From the NCBI GenBank assembly GCA_002698995.1, contig PAAX01000011.1, positions 1 through 64,000 on the forward strand: a stretch of DNA of 64,000 nt, read 5' to 3'. The first letter of the stretch is position 1. Every line of letters starts with the position of its first letter. Below the pieces are notes generated by a model. That model searched no databases. It saw only the letters and a program-made list of their open reading frames with translations, and had not been told where the DNA came from. Below are positions 9,767-15,983 of this stretch, one piece after another. Origin of the DNA: Ignavibacteriota bacterium. GTDB lineage: Bacteria; Bacteroidota; Ignavibacteria; Ignavibacteriales; Melioribacteraceae. Position numbers and translations under genes: made by a program.

Positions 9767-9786
9767 CAAAAAAAATCATAACTACG

Positions 9787-10032
9787 TTGTTCACTGTTTA
9801 CGCTATAAAAAGTATTTCCCATAAATTTATCTATGTCGGGATGACCACTAACCTTGATGAAAGACTTTATCAGCATAATTCAGGTTTTAATAAATCCACA
9901 AAACCTTATAAACCTTTTAGACTCATTTATACTGAAGAATTTGAATCTTCTATTAAAGCTAGAATTCGTGAAAAACAATTAAAAACTGGTAAGGTAAAGA
10001 AATTTTTGTACTCTTTAATTGAACAAGAATAA
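9787..10032 (+). CDS. Small GIY-YIG nuclease-domain protein, copy 1
   Basis: An 81-residue protein made only of a GIY-YIG fold: VYAI near the start, FIYVGMT as the YIG strand, the Arg of DERL, and REKQLK with the likely metal-binding Glu. These are the catalytic positions known from UvrC and I-TevI. The codon matching the ATG of copy 2 is ACG here (9784-9786), so translation would need the next codon, TTG at 9787. There is no Shine-Dalgarno sequence in the 20 bases after the tRNA, so expression is doubtful. The stop TAA (10030-10032) lies in sequence matching the tRNA variable arm. It may be a decaying homing-type nuclease. It is not a UvrC fragment, since no other UvrC domain is present. Confidence 0.75.
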   Translation: MFTVYAIKSISHKFIYVGMTTNLDERLYQHNSGFNKSTKPYKPFRLIYTEEFESSIKARIREKQLKTGKVKKFLYSLIEQE

Positions 10033-10082
10033 ATCCGGTGCCGGCCTACTGCGTAGGTAAATTCGAGTCCGGCCTTCGGTAC
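10030..10082 (+). pseudogene. Displaced tRNA-Leu 3' half, copy 1
   Basis: 10030-10044 matches the tRNA variable arm and 5' T-stem (9732-9746) with one mismatch. 10062-10082 matches the T-loop through the 3' acceptor strand (9747-9767) exactly. Between them lie 17 inserted bases. There is no 5' half, so it cannot fold as a tRNA. Confidence 0.9.
10045..10061 (+). repeat. Single 17-base palindromic unit in the T arm
   Basis: CCTAC-TGC-GTAGG plus TAAA, inserted exactly between the T-stem GCCGG and the T-loop TTCGAGT of the displaced tRNA fragment. The 5-bp palindrome can form a small hairpin on top of the T stem. Confidence 0.9.
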
Positions 10083-10192: not shown

Positions 10193-10441
10193 ATGTTGTT
10201 CACTGTTTACGCTATAAAAAGTATTTCCCATAAATTTATCTATGTCGGGATGACCACTGACCTTAATGAAAGACTTCATCAACATAATTTCAGTTTTAAT
10301 AAATCCACAAAACCATTTAAACCTTTTAGACTCATTTATACTGAAGAATTTGAATCTTCTATTAAAGCTAGAATTCGTGAAAAACAATTAAAAACTGGTG
10401 TGGGAAAAGATTTTTTGTATTCGTTGATTGAAGAAGGTTAA
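10193..10441 (+). CDS. Small GIY-YIG nuclease-domain protein, copy 2
   Basis: An 82-residue GIY-YIG-only protein, about nine-tenths identical to copy 1. Differences cluster at the C-terminus and in the YQHNSG/HQHNFS region. VYAI, FIYVGMT, NERL and REKQLK are intact, so catalytic competence is plausible. It starts at ATG with a modest ACAGG upstream, making it the better candidate for a working gene. The stop TAA at 10439-10441 lies inside an exact 18-base match (10436-10453) to the tRNA variable arm and T-stem, so the ORF is joined to tRNA sequence at its last codons. Free-standing GIY-YIG proteins are known as homing-type or repair nucleases. Its target here, possibly the tRNA-Leu gene, is my inference. 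Confidence 0.8.
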   Translation: MLFTVYAIKSISHKFIYVGMTTDLNERLHQHNFSFNKSTKPFKPFRLIYTEEFESSIKARIREKQLKTGVGKDFLYSLIEEG

Positions 10442-10525
10442 ACCCGGTGCCGGCCTACTGCGTAGGTAAACCTACTTCATAGGTAGACCTACTCCGTAGG
10501 TAGATTCGAGTCCGGCCTTCGGTAC
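10436..10525 (+). pseudogene. Displaced tRNA-Leu 3' half, copy 2
   Basis: 10436-10453 is identical to tRNA positions 9729-9746, and 10505-10525 is identical to 9747-9767. A 51-base insert separates them at the T-stem/T-loop junction. The acceptor 3' strand and T-loop are conserved, but there is no 5' half. Confidence 0.9.
10454..10504 (+). repeat. Three tandem 17-base palindromic units
   Basis: Units at 10454-10470, 10471-10487 and 10488-10504. Each is CCTAC, three variable bases (TGC, TTC, TCC), GTAGG or ATAGG, then TAAA or TAGA. The first equals the single unit in copy 1. The array sits exactly between GCCGG and TTCGAGT of the tRNA-derived T arm. Confidence 0.92.
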
Positions 10526-10668
10526 TTTTCAACTTTCAATTTACAATTCAGAATTTATAATTTACAATTGCTTCTTCAAGTTAGATTTTAAACTCACCCA
10601 ATAATTTTATATGAAATTAACTTATCTTGCAAAAAGTATTTTTCAATTTTAGAATTGGTAAAATTATT

Positions 10669-11430
10669 ATGAGACATTACATTCTTGAAGAAACTAATTG
10701 GAAACATCTTAAGGAAAGAAAAATTGAACTTGCAATTCTTCCTTGGGGTGCCACTGAAGCACATAATTATCATCTCCCCTATTCAACTGATGTAATTGAA
10801 TCTAATTACATTTCTCATGAAGCTGCAAGAAAAGCCTATGAGAAGGGGGCTGATATTATAGTATTACCAACGGTTCCTTTTGGAGTTAATACTGGTCAGA
10901 CAGATATACTATTAGACATAAACATTTATCCATCAACACAATTAGCGATTCTGCATGATATTATTGAAGTATTGAATAGGCAAGGAATTAATAAATTACT
11001 GATTTTGAATAGTCACGGCGGAAATGATTTCAAACCGATTTTGAGAGAACTTGGAGTAAAATTTCCTAATATGTTTTTGACTCTTTGCAATTGGTATTCA
11101 ACAGTTAATAAGGAAAAGTACTTTGATAATTCCGGTGATCATGCAGATGAAATGGAGACAAGCATAATGTTAAACATCGCTCCGGAATTAGTTCTTCCAT
11201 TAAATGAGTCAGGTTTTGGAATTGAGAAGAAGATAAAAATAAAAGGGATTAAAGAAGGATTTGCATGGACAGAAAGAAAGTGGTCAAAGGTAACTAACGA
11301 CACAGGAATTGGAAATCCTAAAAAAGCCTCCTCTGAAAAAGGGGAAATATTTTTAGAAGATTTAACTAATCAGTTAAGTGATTTGCTAATTGAAATCTGC
11401 AATGCTGATTTAAATAATCTTTATGAATAA
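10669..11430 (+). CDS. Creatininase-family amidohydrolase
   Basis: A 253-residue metal-dependent amidohydrolase. Family signatures are WGATEAHNYHLPYSTD (metal-binding Glu/His/Asp), LNSHGGND and GDHADEMETS. The family cleaves cyclic or linear amides (creatinine, formamidopyrimidines, the mycofactocin precursor peptide), so the substrate cannot be read from sequence. I chose ATG at 10669 over an in-frame TTG at 10627, because the extra 14 residues are not family-like. It converges on the amidoligase cluster with only 3 bases between stop codons. That proximity makes a shared pathway possible, but they are separate transcripts. Confidence 0.85.
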   Translation: MRHYILEETNWKHLKERKIELAILPWGATEAHNYHLPYSTDVIESNYISHEAARKAYEKGADIIVLPTVPFGVNTGQTDILLDINIYPSTQLAILHDIIEVLNRQGINKLLILNSHGGNDFKPILRELGVKFPNMFLTLCNWYSTVNKEKYFDNSGDHADEMETSIMLNIAPELVLPLNESGFGIEKKIKIKGIKEGFAWTERKWSKVTNDTGIGNPKKASSEKGEIFLEDLTNQLSDLLIEICNADLNNLYE

Positions 11431-11433
11431 AAA

Positions 11434-12609
11434 TTAAAAATGATATCCAATTGAGGCACCGATCCAGTCTTTGTCTTTATTAAAATCTACTCCTATCATT
11501 TTGCCTTTGCTTGTTCTAACAAGATTGTTGACTAATATTGGTTCATCATTCCAGATAAACATCATTCTAACTTCTGCTTTTGAAAATCCGGTTGGAGTAT
11601 CAATAATTTCTGCATATTCAACTTTTTCCTGCAGAAGATAATTCTGTTTATTTTCTATAGAAGTCAAATCATCTTCTGTTAAATCAACCTTTACACCGGC
11701 TCCGGCAAAGGAATAAAGAGGTTTTAGTACGTATTTTGACAAATCAATATCATCTAAATTAACTTCAGATAAGAAATAACAATTTGGCACAGATTCCCCT
11801 TTTAGAAAAGGTAGAGTGTGTTTGCTGATTTTAAAAAACCAATTGGGATGACCAACCCAGTAAACATCTAAATCACTTTTATAATCGAAAGGGATATTAA
11901 TATTTTTTCTTTCAAGTTCATCAAAAATTACGCGGTTATAAATTCTTTCTATTCTAATTTTCTTTTGATCCTTAATATAGAAAAGAGAATTCCCCTCTTG
12001 AATAATTTCGGTAATGCAAACCGGTTCAACCCCAATATATTCTTTAGTCAGATAAAAATCGATTCGAGTTTTTTGATTATGCGGTTCTAACTCCAAGAGA
12101 ATTACATTTTCCCGTGATGAACTGCCTAGTATAGTTTTTTTAAGAAGATCAATGTAAGAGGTAAAATTATAATTATTAAAAAATGTTTTTAATCTATCAT
12201 CAATATTAAAGTGATTCCTTATTTCAATATCTAAATAAGCCTGAAATGCATACAGTGAAGGAAATCCTTGCAGTTCAATAAGTTTAGGGACTAACTCACC
12301 TTTTTCATCTTTACAGATTCCAAAATCAATCTGTAAAAAAATTGGATGAGAATCTTCATTGGCAATTTTAAACTCTTCAGGAACAGCATTCGAAGCGTAT
12401 TTCTGGAATGATTCCGTTTTCAATTGATTTATAATATTATTGCATGAATCAATAAGTTTGTCCTTCAGATTATCATCAAAAAAGAATGGAGTTTCGCACA
12501 AACGAAAATCGATCTTGTTATTATTTTTACTCCAGACAGAATTAATAAAATTATGATAAGCTTCAGGTGTAAAGTCCGAATTATATTTTTGTCTAATTTC
12601 TTTTATCAT
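11434..12609 (-). CDS. ATP-grasp-like ligase with unknown N-terminal half
   Basis: A 391-residue protein. The C-terminal part (about 285-391) has ATP-grasp features: VLKPLYSFAGAGVKV as the ATP-binding lysine/glycine segment, YLLQEKV as the hinge, and AEVRMMFIW followed by LVRTSKGKMIGVDFNKDKDW for the metal/ATP pocket. The first 280 residues are not recognised; a glutathionylspermidine-synthase-like or permuted arrangement is possible. It is the last gene of a tight minus-strand cluster, 7 bases after the GCS2 ligase gene, so it probably adds an amine or amino acid to the product of the upstream ligases. Substrates are unknown. Confidence 0.65.
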   Translation of the reverse strand: MIKEIRQKYNSDFTPEAYHNFINSVWSKNNNKIDFRLCETPFFFDDNLKDKLIDSCNNIINQLKTESFQKYASNAVPEEFKIANEDSHPIFLQIDFGICKDEKGELVPKLIELQGFPSLYAFQAYLDIEIRNHFNIDDRLKTFFNNYNFTSYIDLLKKTILGSSSRENVILLELEPHNQKTRIDFYLTKEYIGVEPVCITEIIQEGNSLFYIKDQKKIRIERIYNRVIFDELERKNINIPFDYKSDLDVYWVGHPNWFFKISKHTLPFLKGESVPNCYFLSEVNLDDIDLSKYVLKPLYSFAGAGVKVDLTEDDLTSIENKQNYLLQEKVEYAEIIDTPTGFSKAEVRMMFIWNDEPILVNNLVRTSKGKMIGVDFNKDKDWIGASIGYHF

Positions 12610-12616
12610 AAAATTC

Positions 12617-13735
12617 TTATATATCTAATCCCTTATTGGTTTCGGCAACAATGTAATCTACAACTTTAGTAAAGTCATGATCATTATCATTCCAAACCTT
12701 AAGTTGTCTTCTAGCACCAGTTCCGGTTTCAAGCATTTGATAAATATAATTAATCTCGGCTCTGCTGTTAAGTTCATCAACAACATCATCAACAAAATGA
12801 AGCAGTTCATAGATTAAATCTCTAACCGGAACCTCTTCCTTTTTACCAAAATCGATTAATTTCCCTTCCAAACCATAACGGGAAGCACGCCATTTATTTT
12901 CATTAATCAATAATCTTCTATATAATCTGAAACCTAAGTTTTGTTTTAATAACTTATAAAGTTTTGCGACAACAGCCTGCATAAGTGCGGCGAGAGCAAT
13001 TGTTTCATCAATAGTTAATTGTACATCGCAGATTCTAAATTCAAGAGTATTATAAATTGGATGAGGTCTTATATCCCACCAGATTTTCTTTGCATTATCG
13101 ATACAACCCGTTTTAATAAGGAGATTAACATAAGATTCAAATTCACCCCAGCTGTTAAAATGATCGGGAATACCAGTTCTTGGGAAGCGATCGAAAATTT
13201 TTATTCTATAAGATTTGAAACCTGTATTTCTTCCTTTCCAAAAAGGAGAATTGGTTGATAACGCAAAAATATGGGGAAGAAAATATCTGGCAGCATTCAT
13301 AATTTGAATTGCAGTTTCCTTGTCATCCATTCCAACATGAACATGCAGACCAAAAATTAAATTAGCTCTAGCAACCTGCTGCATTTCTTCAACAACACCA
13401 CGGTATCTGTCGTGATCTGTAATTCTTTGATCTTCCCATCGAGAGAAAGGATGAGTTCCGGAAGCTGCTATTACTAATCCCTGCGCTTTAGCAAGTTTTG
13501 CCAGATTAGTTCTAAGTTTAATAACTTCACTCCTAGCCTCTTTTATATCCTGACAAATTTCTGAACCGGTCTCAACTACTGATTGGTGCATTTCAGCTTT
13601 AATTTGTTCTTTGAGAACCATTTTACCGCTTTCTTCAAGCATCTGCTGAATATGCGATTTCAATTCTCTTGTATTTGGATCAATAATTTGAAATTCTTCT
13701 TCTATGCCAAGTGAAAATAGTTTCGGGCTTCCCAT
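12617..13735 (-). CDS. Carboxylate-amine ligase, GCS2/YbdK type
   Basis: A 372-residue member of the glutamate-cysteine ligase type 2 family (glutamine-synthetase fold), which joins a carboxylate, often glutamate, to an amine using ATP. Family signatures are SLGIEEEFQIID at the N-terminus, SVVETGSEICQ, ASGTHPFSRWEDQ and GLHVHVGM. Some members make gamma-glutamylcysteine, while YbdK-like enzymes act on other amines, so the product is uncertain. ATG at 13735 is preferred; a GTG at 13744 in the same frame would add three residues. It lies 11 bases after one ATP-grasp gene and 7 before another. Confidence 0.9.
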   Translation of the reverse strand: MGSPKLFSLGIEEEFQIIDPNTRELKSHIQQMLEESGKMVLKEQIKAEMHQSVVETGSEICQDIKEARSEVIKLRTNLAKLAKAQGLVIAASGTHPFSRWEDQRITDHDRYRGVVEEMQQVARANLIFGLHVHVGMDDKETAIQIMNAARYFLPHIFALSTNSPFWKGRNTGFKSYRIKIFDRFPRTGIPDHFNSWGEFESYVNLLIKTGCIDNAKKIWWDIRPHPIYNTLEFRICDVQLTIDETIALAALMQAVVAKLYKLLKQNLGFRLYRRLLINENKWRASRYGLEGKLIDFGKKEEVPVRDLIYELLHFVDDVVDELNSRAEINYIYQMLETGTGARRQLKVWNDNDHDFTKVVDYIVAETNKGLDI

Positions 13736-13746
13736 AATAATCACTT

Positions 13747-14724
13747 TTATTTGTTTTTAGCTTTATTTGATTTAACTGTTTTATTATTTGCAAACGATGT
13801 TATAAAATCACCCCAAGTTAAATTGTTCTCTCCTGGATTATGATTCTTAGCTTTTCTAATTGCCATATTAGCTGCGGCTTCAACTACCCATTCAAAATTT
13901 TCTTCGCCAACAGAATGAACATCGGCATCCGGCGCTGGATTACAGAAATCAATTGCAATTGGAATTCCATCTCTAACTGCAAATTCAACTGTATTAAAAT
14001 CATAACCTAAAGCATTGTTTAATTTTATAACATCTTCTTCAATCCGCTTCATTAGGTTTTTATCTTTGGGAACATAGTTTTGAACATATCTTAAATGATG
14101 CGGTTGTTTAGGATCGTACGCCATAATTTTAACATCTTTTCTATCGATACAGTAACATCTGAAATATTCATCAAATTCGATTGCCTCTTGCAGCATCATA
14201 ACTAAGGTACCGGTCTCATTATAAGCGTTAAAGAATTCTTCTTTATTGTGGACCTTATAGACATTCTTCCATCCGCCTCCGGCAAACGGTTTAAAGAATG
14301 CCGGGAAACCGACATAATTAAAAATCGATTCCCAATCTAATGGATATTCCAAGTTCCTCATTGAAAATTCATTTGTATCGGGGGGATGCTGATTAGAAGG
14401 AAGAATTACTGTCTTAGGAACAGCAACCCCAACCTTTACAGCTAATGCATTGTTAAAAAATTTATCATCGGCTGACCACCAGAAAGGATTATTAATAACC
14501 GCAGTTCCGGTTATAGCAGCATTTTTAAGCATTGCTCTATAGAAAGGAATATCTTGTGAAATTCTATCTATAATTACATCATAACCCTGAGGTTCAGCCT
14601 GCATTACTTTGCCAATTTTTACAAGTTCAGCAGAAATCCCCTTTTCATTTTTTGAATTAACTCGATCAACAAATGCTTTTGGAAAGGTATTCTCCTGCCC
14701 AAAAAGAATTCCAATCTTTTTCAT
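13747..14724 (-). CDS. RimK/glutathione-synthetase-like ATP-grasp ligase
   Basis: A 325-residue ATP-grasp enzyme. The N-terminal Rossmann-like part begins KKIGILFGQENTFP. The ATP-grasp fold follows, with FPAFFKPFAGGGWKNV (phosphate-clamp lysine and glycine loop), MMLQEAIEF at the hinge and TVEFAVRDGIPIAIDFCNPAPD near the metal ligands. It should activate a carboxylate as acyl-phosphate and couple it to an amine. With the GCS2 enzyme next door this resembles the two-step logic of glutathione synthesis, but the substrates are unknown. The C-terminal 15 residues are a lysine/asparagine-rich tail. It starts 29 bases after the esterase-like gene in the same operon. Confidence 0.85.
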   Translation of the reverse strand: MKKIGILFGQENTFPKAFVDRVNSKNEKGISAELVKIGKVMQAEPQGYDVIIDRISQDIPFYRAMLKNAAITGTAVINNPFWWSADDKFFNNALAVKVGVAVPKTVILPSNQHPPDTNEFSMRNLEYPLDWESIFNYVGFPAFFKPFAGGGWKNVYKVHNKEEFFNAYNETGTLVMMLQEAIEFDEYFRCYCIDRKDVKIMAYDPKQPHHLRYVQNYVPKDKNLMKRIEEDVIKLNNALGYDFNTVEFAVRDGIPIAIDFCNPAPDADVHSVGEENFEWVVEAAANMAIRKAKNHNPGENNLTWGDFITSFANNKTVKSNKAKNK

Positions 14725-14753
14725 AAACCCCTCTATAAAAATTATATTTGAAA

Positions 14754-15470
14754 TTATAAATTAGAAACGTAAAACTGAAAGACTTCTCTAGCTTTATCCC
14801 AATTTTTGCCTAAGCCCTCAATGTAGGCAAAAGTATGACCAATTTTTTTCTGATTTAATATTTGGGAAATTCTTTTACTTTCATCCAAATGATTATCAAA
14901 ATTTCCGGTAACAATGGTTATCGACATATCTTTAATTTGATCCAAATACCAAGGATCATTTAAATTCGGGATATAATCCAATGGATTATTATAATAAGCT
15001 TCATCATCATAATGCCCTAATATGAACTGCTTCATGTCATAAATTCCGCAAAATGCATAAATTCCTTTTACAAGATCAGGATATTTAAAAGCTAGATTTA
15101 GTGAATAATAAGCACCAAACTCGTATCCGCATAAAATTACTTTTTCGTTTTCTGTATCATATTTTGCAAATTCAATTACATCTTTAATAATTGTCTGTTC
15201 ATATGCTAAATGATTTTGAATTCTTTCTTCAGGTGAGATATTAAAATTAAGCCAGGTTTGATTGACAATCGAATCCGGGCAATAAACTTTAATTTTATTT
15301 GAGTTAATTAGTTCTTGAAGAGAGTGAATAAATCCGAGATCTTTGGGAGTGTAGTATCTTCCCAGAGTTGAAGGAAACACGATAATAGGAATGCCCGTTT
15401 CGCCAAAAACGAGCATTTCAAAATCTCTATCGAAAAATTGGGAATACCACTTGTGATAATGTTCAATCAT
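14754..15470 (-). CDS. Esterase-like alpha/beta-hydrolase lacking catalytic residues
   Basis: A 238-residue protein resembling the small COG4947-type esterases: an HYHKWYSQFFDRDFEMLVFG start, a nucleophile-elbow strand at 110-125, and an acid region GNFDNHLDES at 189-198. The elbow reads GYEFG (115-119), so Glu117 replaces the nucleophilic Ser. Near the C-terminus GKNWDK (221-226) has Asn223 where the family has the catalytic His. It is therefore probably not a classical esterase. It may act as a binding or scaffold partner for the ligases that follow at 29 and 11 bases. The codon is GAG, not a one-step change from a common Ser codon, so a sequencing slip is unlikely. Confidence 0.75.
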   Translation of the reverse strand: MIEHYHKWYSQFFDRDFEMLVFGETGIPIIVFPSTLGRYYTPKDLGFIHSLQELINSNKIKVYCPDSIVNQTWLNFNISPEERIQNHLAYEQTIIKDVIEFAKYDTENEKVILCGYEFGAYYSLNLAFKYPDLVKGIYAFCGIYDMKQFILGHYDDEAYYNNPLDYIPNLNDPWYLDQIKDMSITIVTGNFDNHLDESKRISQILNQKKIGHTFAYIEGLGKNWDKAREVFQFYVSNL

Positions 15471-15533
15471 TAAAAAATCTGCCCAAGAATTTTAGGCAAA
15501 TATAATGATGAATTGAGTAAATATCATAAAAAA

Positions 15534-15983
15534 CTATTGCTGATTCAGATAATCCTTAGAAACTATTTTGGATAATAAATCAGTAAAGTTTGTGGGATCT
15601 AAATATCCCGGAACAATTCCAATAAATTGACCGGAGGGCTCAAAAAATCCGGTTGCTGGATATCCAGTAACTCCAGCGGCACCGGCAAATTGTCCGTTAG
15701 TATATTTATTTGAATCAAAATTTACAGTGCCAGGTTTCTCCGGATTCAATTTCACTAAAACAAAATCTTTATTTAGTAATTTAATAATATTCTTATTAGC
15801 ATAAGTTTCAGAATCCATTTTTTTACACCATCCGCACCAGTCAGTGTAAAAGTCTACTAAAAGAAATTTATTTTCTTTCTTAGCTTTTGCCAATCCTTCA
15901 TCAAAACCGTACCACTTTAATTTGTCGTTTGCTGAAATAATTGTTGCAAATAAAAATATAGTTAATAATAGTTTCTTGATCAT
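15534..15983 (-). CDS. Exported thioredoxin-fold protein
   Basis: A 149-residue protein starting at ATG 15983, seven bases after AGGA; a longer frame to 16037 adds 18 residues that would bury the signal peptide. Residues 1-18 form a hydrophobic signal peptide. The thioredoxin fold carries DFYTDWCGWCKKM with CxxC at about 50-53. The cis-proline region is GVTGYPATGFF. This matches thioredoxin_7-type periplasmic disulfide reductases. It lies 63 bases upstream of the esterase-like gene on the same strand, so it may share the transcript of the amidoligase cluster. Confidence 0.85.
   Translation of the reverse strand: MIKKLLLTIFLFATIISANDKLKWYGFDEGLAKAKKENKFLLVDFYTDWCGWCKKMDSETYANKNIIKLLNKDFVLVKLNPEKPGTVNFDSNKYTNGQFAGAAGVTGYPATGFFEPSGQFIGIVPGYLDPTNFTDLLSKIVSKDYLNQQ

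Follow-up and report, generated by a model that had tools for sequence, protein, structure and literature searches.

Glutathione biosynthesis, by a GCS2-type GshA with GshB or with the eukaryotic glutathione synthetase GSS, places a GCS2-fold ligase and an ATP-grasp enzyme in series. The osmoprotectant N-acetylglutaminylglutamine amide (NAGGN) is associated with a trio of a peptide ligase, a glutamine amidotransferase of the asparagine-synthase type and an M42 peptidase (TIGR03106), and GspS (glutathionylspermidine synthetase/amidase) pairs its ligase with an amidase. In E. coli, YgiC and YjfC are annotated as peptide-spermidine ligases, a role also cited in the literature (PMC12568646). Cp1B, a ligase of the fungal E-64 pathway with the GSS/YgiC ATP-grasp fold, works in a standalone pathway, free of nonribosomal peptide synthetases, that leads to an amine-capped pseudodipeptide; the amine is added there by an adenylating synthetase and not by an ATP-grasp (PMC12568646). 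Here we describe a four-gene unit in a window of 64,000 bp (the whole stretch of DNA analysed: positions 1 to 64,000, forward strand, of contig PAAX01000011.1, assembly GCA_002698995.1) from an Ignavibacteriota bacterium. The order of transcription on the minus strand is an esterase-like gene (EST), a RimK-like ATP-grasp ligase (AG1), a GCS2/YbdK-family ligase (GCS2) and a second ligase of predicted ATP-grasp fold (AG2). A previous sequence-only reading had placed these four types of gene in a row on one strand, which the open reading frames and the family and fold evidence confirm. The three ligases occur together in several bacterial groups, also where their genes are not linked, and for this reason a single small peptide-like molecule is their probable product.

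Analysis of the relatives supports the earlier proposal of three ATP-dependent ligases in a conserved amidoligase cluster. GCS2 was detected in 27 relatives besides the source genome, with 68-81% identity, and the order AG1-GCS2-AG2 is retained at every complete locus among them, so the outcome that the earlier reading had named as refuting, genes unlinked in relatives, did not arise. Co-occurrence was assessed in 198 genomes drawn across the phylum, counting clear hits only. AG1 is present in 69 of these, GCS2 in 59 and AG2 in 59, with all three together in 53, so that 53 of the 59 genomes with AG2 carry the full set. The three genes are fully linked in 31 of the 53, and in the remaining 22 at least one gene lies elsewhere. 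As AG1, GCS2 and AG2 co-occur even when unlinked, they very likely form one pathway; for a shared pathway this unlinked co-occurrence counts for more than linkage would by itself.

GCS2 is a clear member of the carboxylate-amine ligases. It matches PF04107 (3.5e-69), the NCBIfam model NF010039 (551 bits, above the cut-off of 371) and the YbdK structure 1r8g (2e-59). The ligase residues of the GIExE, HxH and Arg/Glu motifs (E15, E17, E58, H134, H136, E235 and R237) are invariant in 28 sequences and align with the same residues of YbdK, so the ligase residues on which the previous reading had made a shared pathway depend are intact. What sets the GCS2 of the window apart from E. coli YbdK and the NCBIfam carboxylate-amine ligase PRK13515 is its place beside AG1 and AG2 in a conserved unit. 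AG1 has a weak RimK-like match (TIGR00768, 1.8e-7, 30.8 bits, under the cut-off of 143.4) and is RimK-like, not filed as RimK proper. Its model (predicted local confidence, pLDDT, 82) has the RimK/LysX fold and superposes on RimK with a Z-score of 21.3 and a root-mean-square deviation of 3.1 over 263 residues; no informative score came from aligning AG1 with E. coli RimK as a single sequence.

AG2 has no match in Pfam or NCBIfam, and GSP_synth (PF03738) matches neither AG2 nor any other protein of the genome; its assignment as an ATP-grasp comes from the predicted fold. The AG2 model (pLDDT 91.5, pTM 0.92) superposes over residues 1-391 on YjfC (Z 25.8), YgiC (25.7), GspS (24.6) and human GSS (24.1). 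Residues D95, E112, Q114, K263, K296 and R365 are invariant in 103 homologues, and in a local profile alignment with YgiC/GspS homologues (p 6e-5) the first five of them pair with D, E, N, K and K, which in the GspS family we take to be metal and ATP ligands; hhalign in global mode gave no useful score. Within the R-x-D...E-x-N motif, D95 and E112 are invariant, the Asn is replaced by the invariant Gln114, and the Arg position (93) is mostly Q, A or V. The Arg that stands before the metal Asp in GspS, YgiC and Cp1B is R139 in Cp1B, where it is required for full activity (PMC12568646). AG2 thus resembles YgiC, YjfC and GspS in its whole predicted fold and aligned metal- and ATP-binding residues, but differs from them in the missing Arg, in the Gln for Asn, in falling outside GSP_synth and in a host without above-cut-off SpeE and NspC. 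On the model and the alignments, AG2 is taken to work like GSP_synth enzymes but is not assigned to that family. In the phylum sample AG2 occurs in about 19 families, and when each species was represented by one genome, a scan confirmed it in at least 591 stretches; a plasmid search found no match. Where AG2 is unlinked, its surroundings seem to be specific to the lineage. Two relatives have AG2 either fused to a sodium:solute symporter (PF00474) or directly downstream of one (L199:3637-6240 and L203:6984-8369), which possibly hints at an imported substrate; the fusion may reflect faulty assembly. In several members of family f3, AG2 is followed by a protein of 1,230-1,270 aa with an alpha-amylase domain (L037:12788-16573 and similar).

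Many relatives have additional genes between GCS2 and AG2, namely a class-I glutamine-amidotransferase-like protein (GAT, PF00117) or an M29 aminopeptidase (PF02073). Among 80 named loci from Ignavibacteriota, Bacteroidota, Verrucomicrobiota, Calditrichota and Cloacimonadota, GAT lies immediately upstream of AG2 in about 40 and M29 in 14; Chitinophagaceae often have the arrangement M42 aminopeptidase-GAT-AG2. A single GAT orthologue, 58% identical, is encoded in the source genome on a different contig from the unit. GAT occurs in 49 of the 198 phylum genomes, 48 of which also have AG1. Eleven genomes have AG1 and GAT without AG2, and in all eight loci of this kind that were examined a circularly permuted ATP-grasp of the PF14403 type lies between AG1 and GAT; searches of other loci with the PF14403 protein gave no match. 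Since this protein stands in the place of AG2 at 8/8 loci, AG1 is nearly always partnered by a permuted ATP-grasp, of either the AG2 or the PF14403 type.

Given that GCS2, a RimK-like ligase and a GspS-fold ligase parallel the synthesis of glutathione and then glutathionylspermidine, a gamma-glutamyl pseudopeptide with an amine or ammonia cap is the most likely product. The chances seem to us evenly balanced that the unit makes one such small molecule by serial ATP-dependent amide couplings, following the glutathione to glutathionylspermidine logic with different enzymes and with a product that is probably not a thiol. GCS2 would activate the gamma-carboxylate of glutamate, or of a similar acid, and couple it to the amine of an amino acid, and AG1, being of the RimK/LysX type, would append a further residue. 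AG2, like GspS and GSS, would then turn the remaining carboxylate into an acyl-phosphate and cap it with an amine or ammonia. GAT might either provide ammonia to AG2 or serve as the matching hydrolase, and the M29 and M42 aminopeptidases of the relatives probably degrade the product; the pairing of AG2 with GAT or peptidases recalls that of ligase and amidase in GspS. Spermidine is unlikely to be the amine in the source organism, as SpeE and NspC, of spermidine synthesis, score below cut-off in its genome, which leaves uptake or other amines. The resemblance to glutathione synthesis suggested by the sequence-only reading is closer than that reading could tell, in view of the glutathione/glutathionylspermidine synthetase fold predicted for AG2. 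GAT, M29, M42 and the PF14403 ATP-grasp were likewise beyond its reach, as none of them is encoded in the operon of the window. Unlike glutathione synthesis, the set combines ATP-grasps of two classes, is partnered by GAT and peptidases, and belongs to a host in which the bacillithiol pathway is already present. The E-64 pathway, for its part, has no GCS2 or RimK-type partner.

Several points weigh against the gamma-glutamyl pseudopeptide. The hypergeometric probability of the co-occurrence (P < 1e-34) treats related genomes as independent. In the four genomes of family f29 (L162, L163, L209 and L164/L165), AG1, GAT and AG2 are present without a GCS2 orthologue, so the gamma-glutamyl step may be dispensable or otherwise supplied, and GCS2 is the less constant member of the ligase set. 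The absence from AG2 of the Arg next to the metal Asp, which GspS and Cp1B have, may mean a different substrate or chemistry. Finally, the product is not pinned down by any gene found for transport, for regulation or for making a dedicated precursor.

A rather unlikely alternative is a compatible solute or peptide amide similar to NAGGN, in which the ligases would form a dipeptide, GAT would pass glutamine ammonia to AG2 to give a C-terminal primary amide, and M42 or M29 would degrade the product. Some relatives do combine peptide ligase, glutamine amidotransferase and M42 peptidase, in Chitinophagaceae GAT-AG2 is preceded by an M42 enzyme, a type of peptidase that also belongs to the NAGGN trio, and GAT, besides its frequent place just upstream of AG2, has an intact and invariant Cys-His-Glu triad (C108, H211, E213). 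However, the amidotransferase here is of class I, the Chitinophagaceae M42 scores 39 bits against the TIGR03106 cut-off of 398 and is closer to lysyl aminopeptidase, and 21 of the 59 AG2 genomes have no GAT. Moreover, the nucleophile elbow of GAT reads CHSFQ instead of CxGxQ. Its best PDB match is an acyltransferase, homoserine O-succinyltransferase MetA (1.8e-5), so that acyl transfer or hydrolysis is no less likely for GAT than the supply of ammonia.

The possible thiol product of the sequence-only reading fares poorly. In such a glutathione-like scheme GCS2 would make gamma-glutamylcysteine, AG1 or AG2 would add glycine or another residue, and the thioredoxin-fold protein encoded 63 bases upstream of EST would be linked to the product. 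It agrees with the gamma-glutamylcysteine ligases within the GCS2 superfamily and with the eukaryotic glutathione synthetase fold predicted for AG2. Nevertheless, BshA (559 bits) and BshC (498 bits) are above cut-off in the source genome and BshC is found in 196 of the 198 phylum genomes, which argues that the set neither replaces bacillithiol nor fills the niche of a missing thiol. The distance reported for the thioredoxin-fold gene was correct, but the gene is near the unit in only three of the 27 relatives and is a local neighbour, not a conserved partner. A terminator-like site (15501-15477, minus strand) lies between it and EST, itself a weak sign, as the terminator scan as a whole was close to the shuffled expectation (4 found, 2.9 expected). 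Based on this site and on the rarity of the adjacency in relatives, the thioredoxin-fold gene probably lies outside the system. Overall, a thiol is an unlikely product.

A further possibility, which we consider quite improbable, is that the ligases modify a protein or peptide, as RimK modifies ribosomal protein S6, and that GAT, M29, M42 or the esterase detach the tag. The AG1 fold is nearest to RimK and LysX, which act on protein carboxylates, and peptidases accompany the ligases; also, AG2 is replaceable by PF14403, a class for which Iyer et al. 2009 reportedly proposed a tagging role. On the other hand, none of the loci showed a conserved gene for a small carrier or target, and small molecules are the substrates of GspS, GSS, Cp1B and the gamma-glutamylcysteine ligases. 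That the genes are chance neighbours without a shared pathway, a view to which the broken linkage in 22 of the 53 complete genomes lends some colour, is hardly credible, since chance adjacency cannot give the co-occurrence of genes that are unlinked.

The coordinates of the unit and of its upstream neighbour are given in Table 1. The gaps between the unit genes are 29 (EST/AG1), 2 (AG1/GCS2) and 7 bases (GCS2/AG2); the second becomes 11 bases if GCS2 begins at its invariant Met4.

Table 1. Genes of the ligase unit and the upstream neighbour, in order of transcription, with positions in the window.
Feature	Position	Strand	Remark
Exported thioredoxin-fold protein	15534..15983	minus	Upstream neighbour, probably not in the system
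EST, alpha/beta-hydrolase, esterase-like	14754..15470	minus	Heads the unit; lacks the catalytic Ser and His
AG1, RimK/LysX-type ATP-grasp ligase	13747..14724	minus	K145, E180, D259 and N262 invariant in alignment
GCS2/YbdK-family carboxylate-amine (gamma-glutamyl) ligase	12617..13744	minus	Probable start ATG at 13735
AG2, ligase with predicted glutathionylspermidine/glutathione synthetase (permuted ATP-grasp) fold	11434..12609	minus	Predicted fold and invariant residues

The esterase-like gene does head the unit, as had been read from the sequence, and is found directly upstream of AG1 in 14 of the 27 relatives (42-50% identity), but the window copy lacks the catalytic Ser and His. It has GYEFG for GxSxG and GKNW for GHDW, with the Asp retained, and judging by these motifs the protein could have no more than a non-catalytic part. 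Six of 34 aligned rows lack the nucleophile (the window, L034, L031/L057 and L043/L086, with the substitutions E, G, D and G); besides the window copy, the Ser has gone by differing substitutions in three or more relatives from its family. The remaining aligned rows, together with the EST proteins of the loci with the PF14403 ATP-grasp, retain Ser and His. Beyond the other end of the unit, a creatininase-family amidohydrolase on the plus strand (10627-11430) converges on AG2 at a distance of 3 bases; a creatininase is near the unit in none of the 27 relatives, and the gene was rejected as a member of the pathway. Further along there is a tandem duplication of a GIY-YIG nuclease-like open reading frame (9786-10061 and 10195-10470; 276 nt, 92% identical), the family name being assigned by eye from the motif, and each copy is followed by a 75-nt repeat holding TTCGAGTCCGGCCTTCGG.

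To our knowledge no product is known for this gene set, and Iyer et al. 2009 are said to have predicted many amidoligase neighbourhoods. Full-text literature searches found no paper on the set; that amidoligase survey (Iyer et al. 2009) is the likeliest place for an earlier listing of the neighbourhood and may contain it. We tentatively propose, while rating the full proposal at somewhat less than an even chance, that the unit forms the centre of a pathway, widespread and so far undescribed, in Ignavibacteriota, Bacteroidota, Verrucomicrobiota and their neighbours. Its product would belong to a new class of gamma-glutamyl pseudotripeptides with an amine or amide cap; AG2 would represent a new family of GSS-fold ligases, and GAT would donate the amide or act as hydrolase. 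The gene set is open to experiment, with four candidate enzymes, cultured hosts (Spirosoma, Hymenobacter and Chitinophaga) and a natural replacement of AG2. About one third of the sampled phylum genomes carry AG1 or AG2, and if the ligases do build one small molecule, a metabolite common among free-living Bacteroidota and their relatives would so far have been overlooked.

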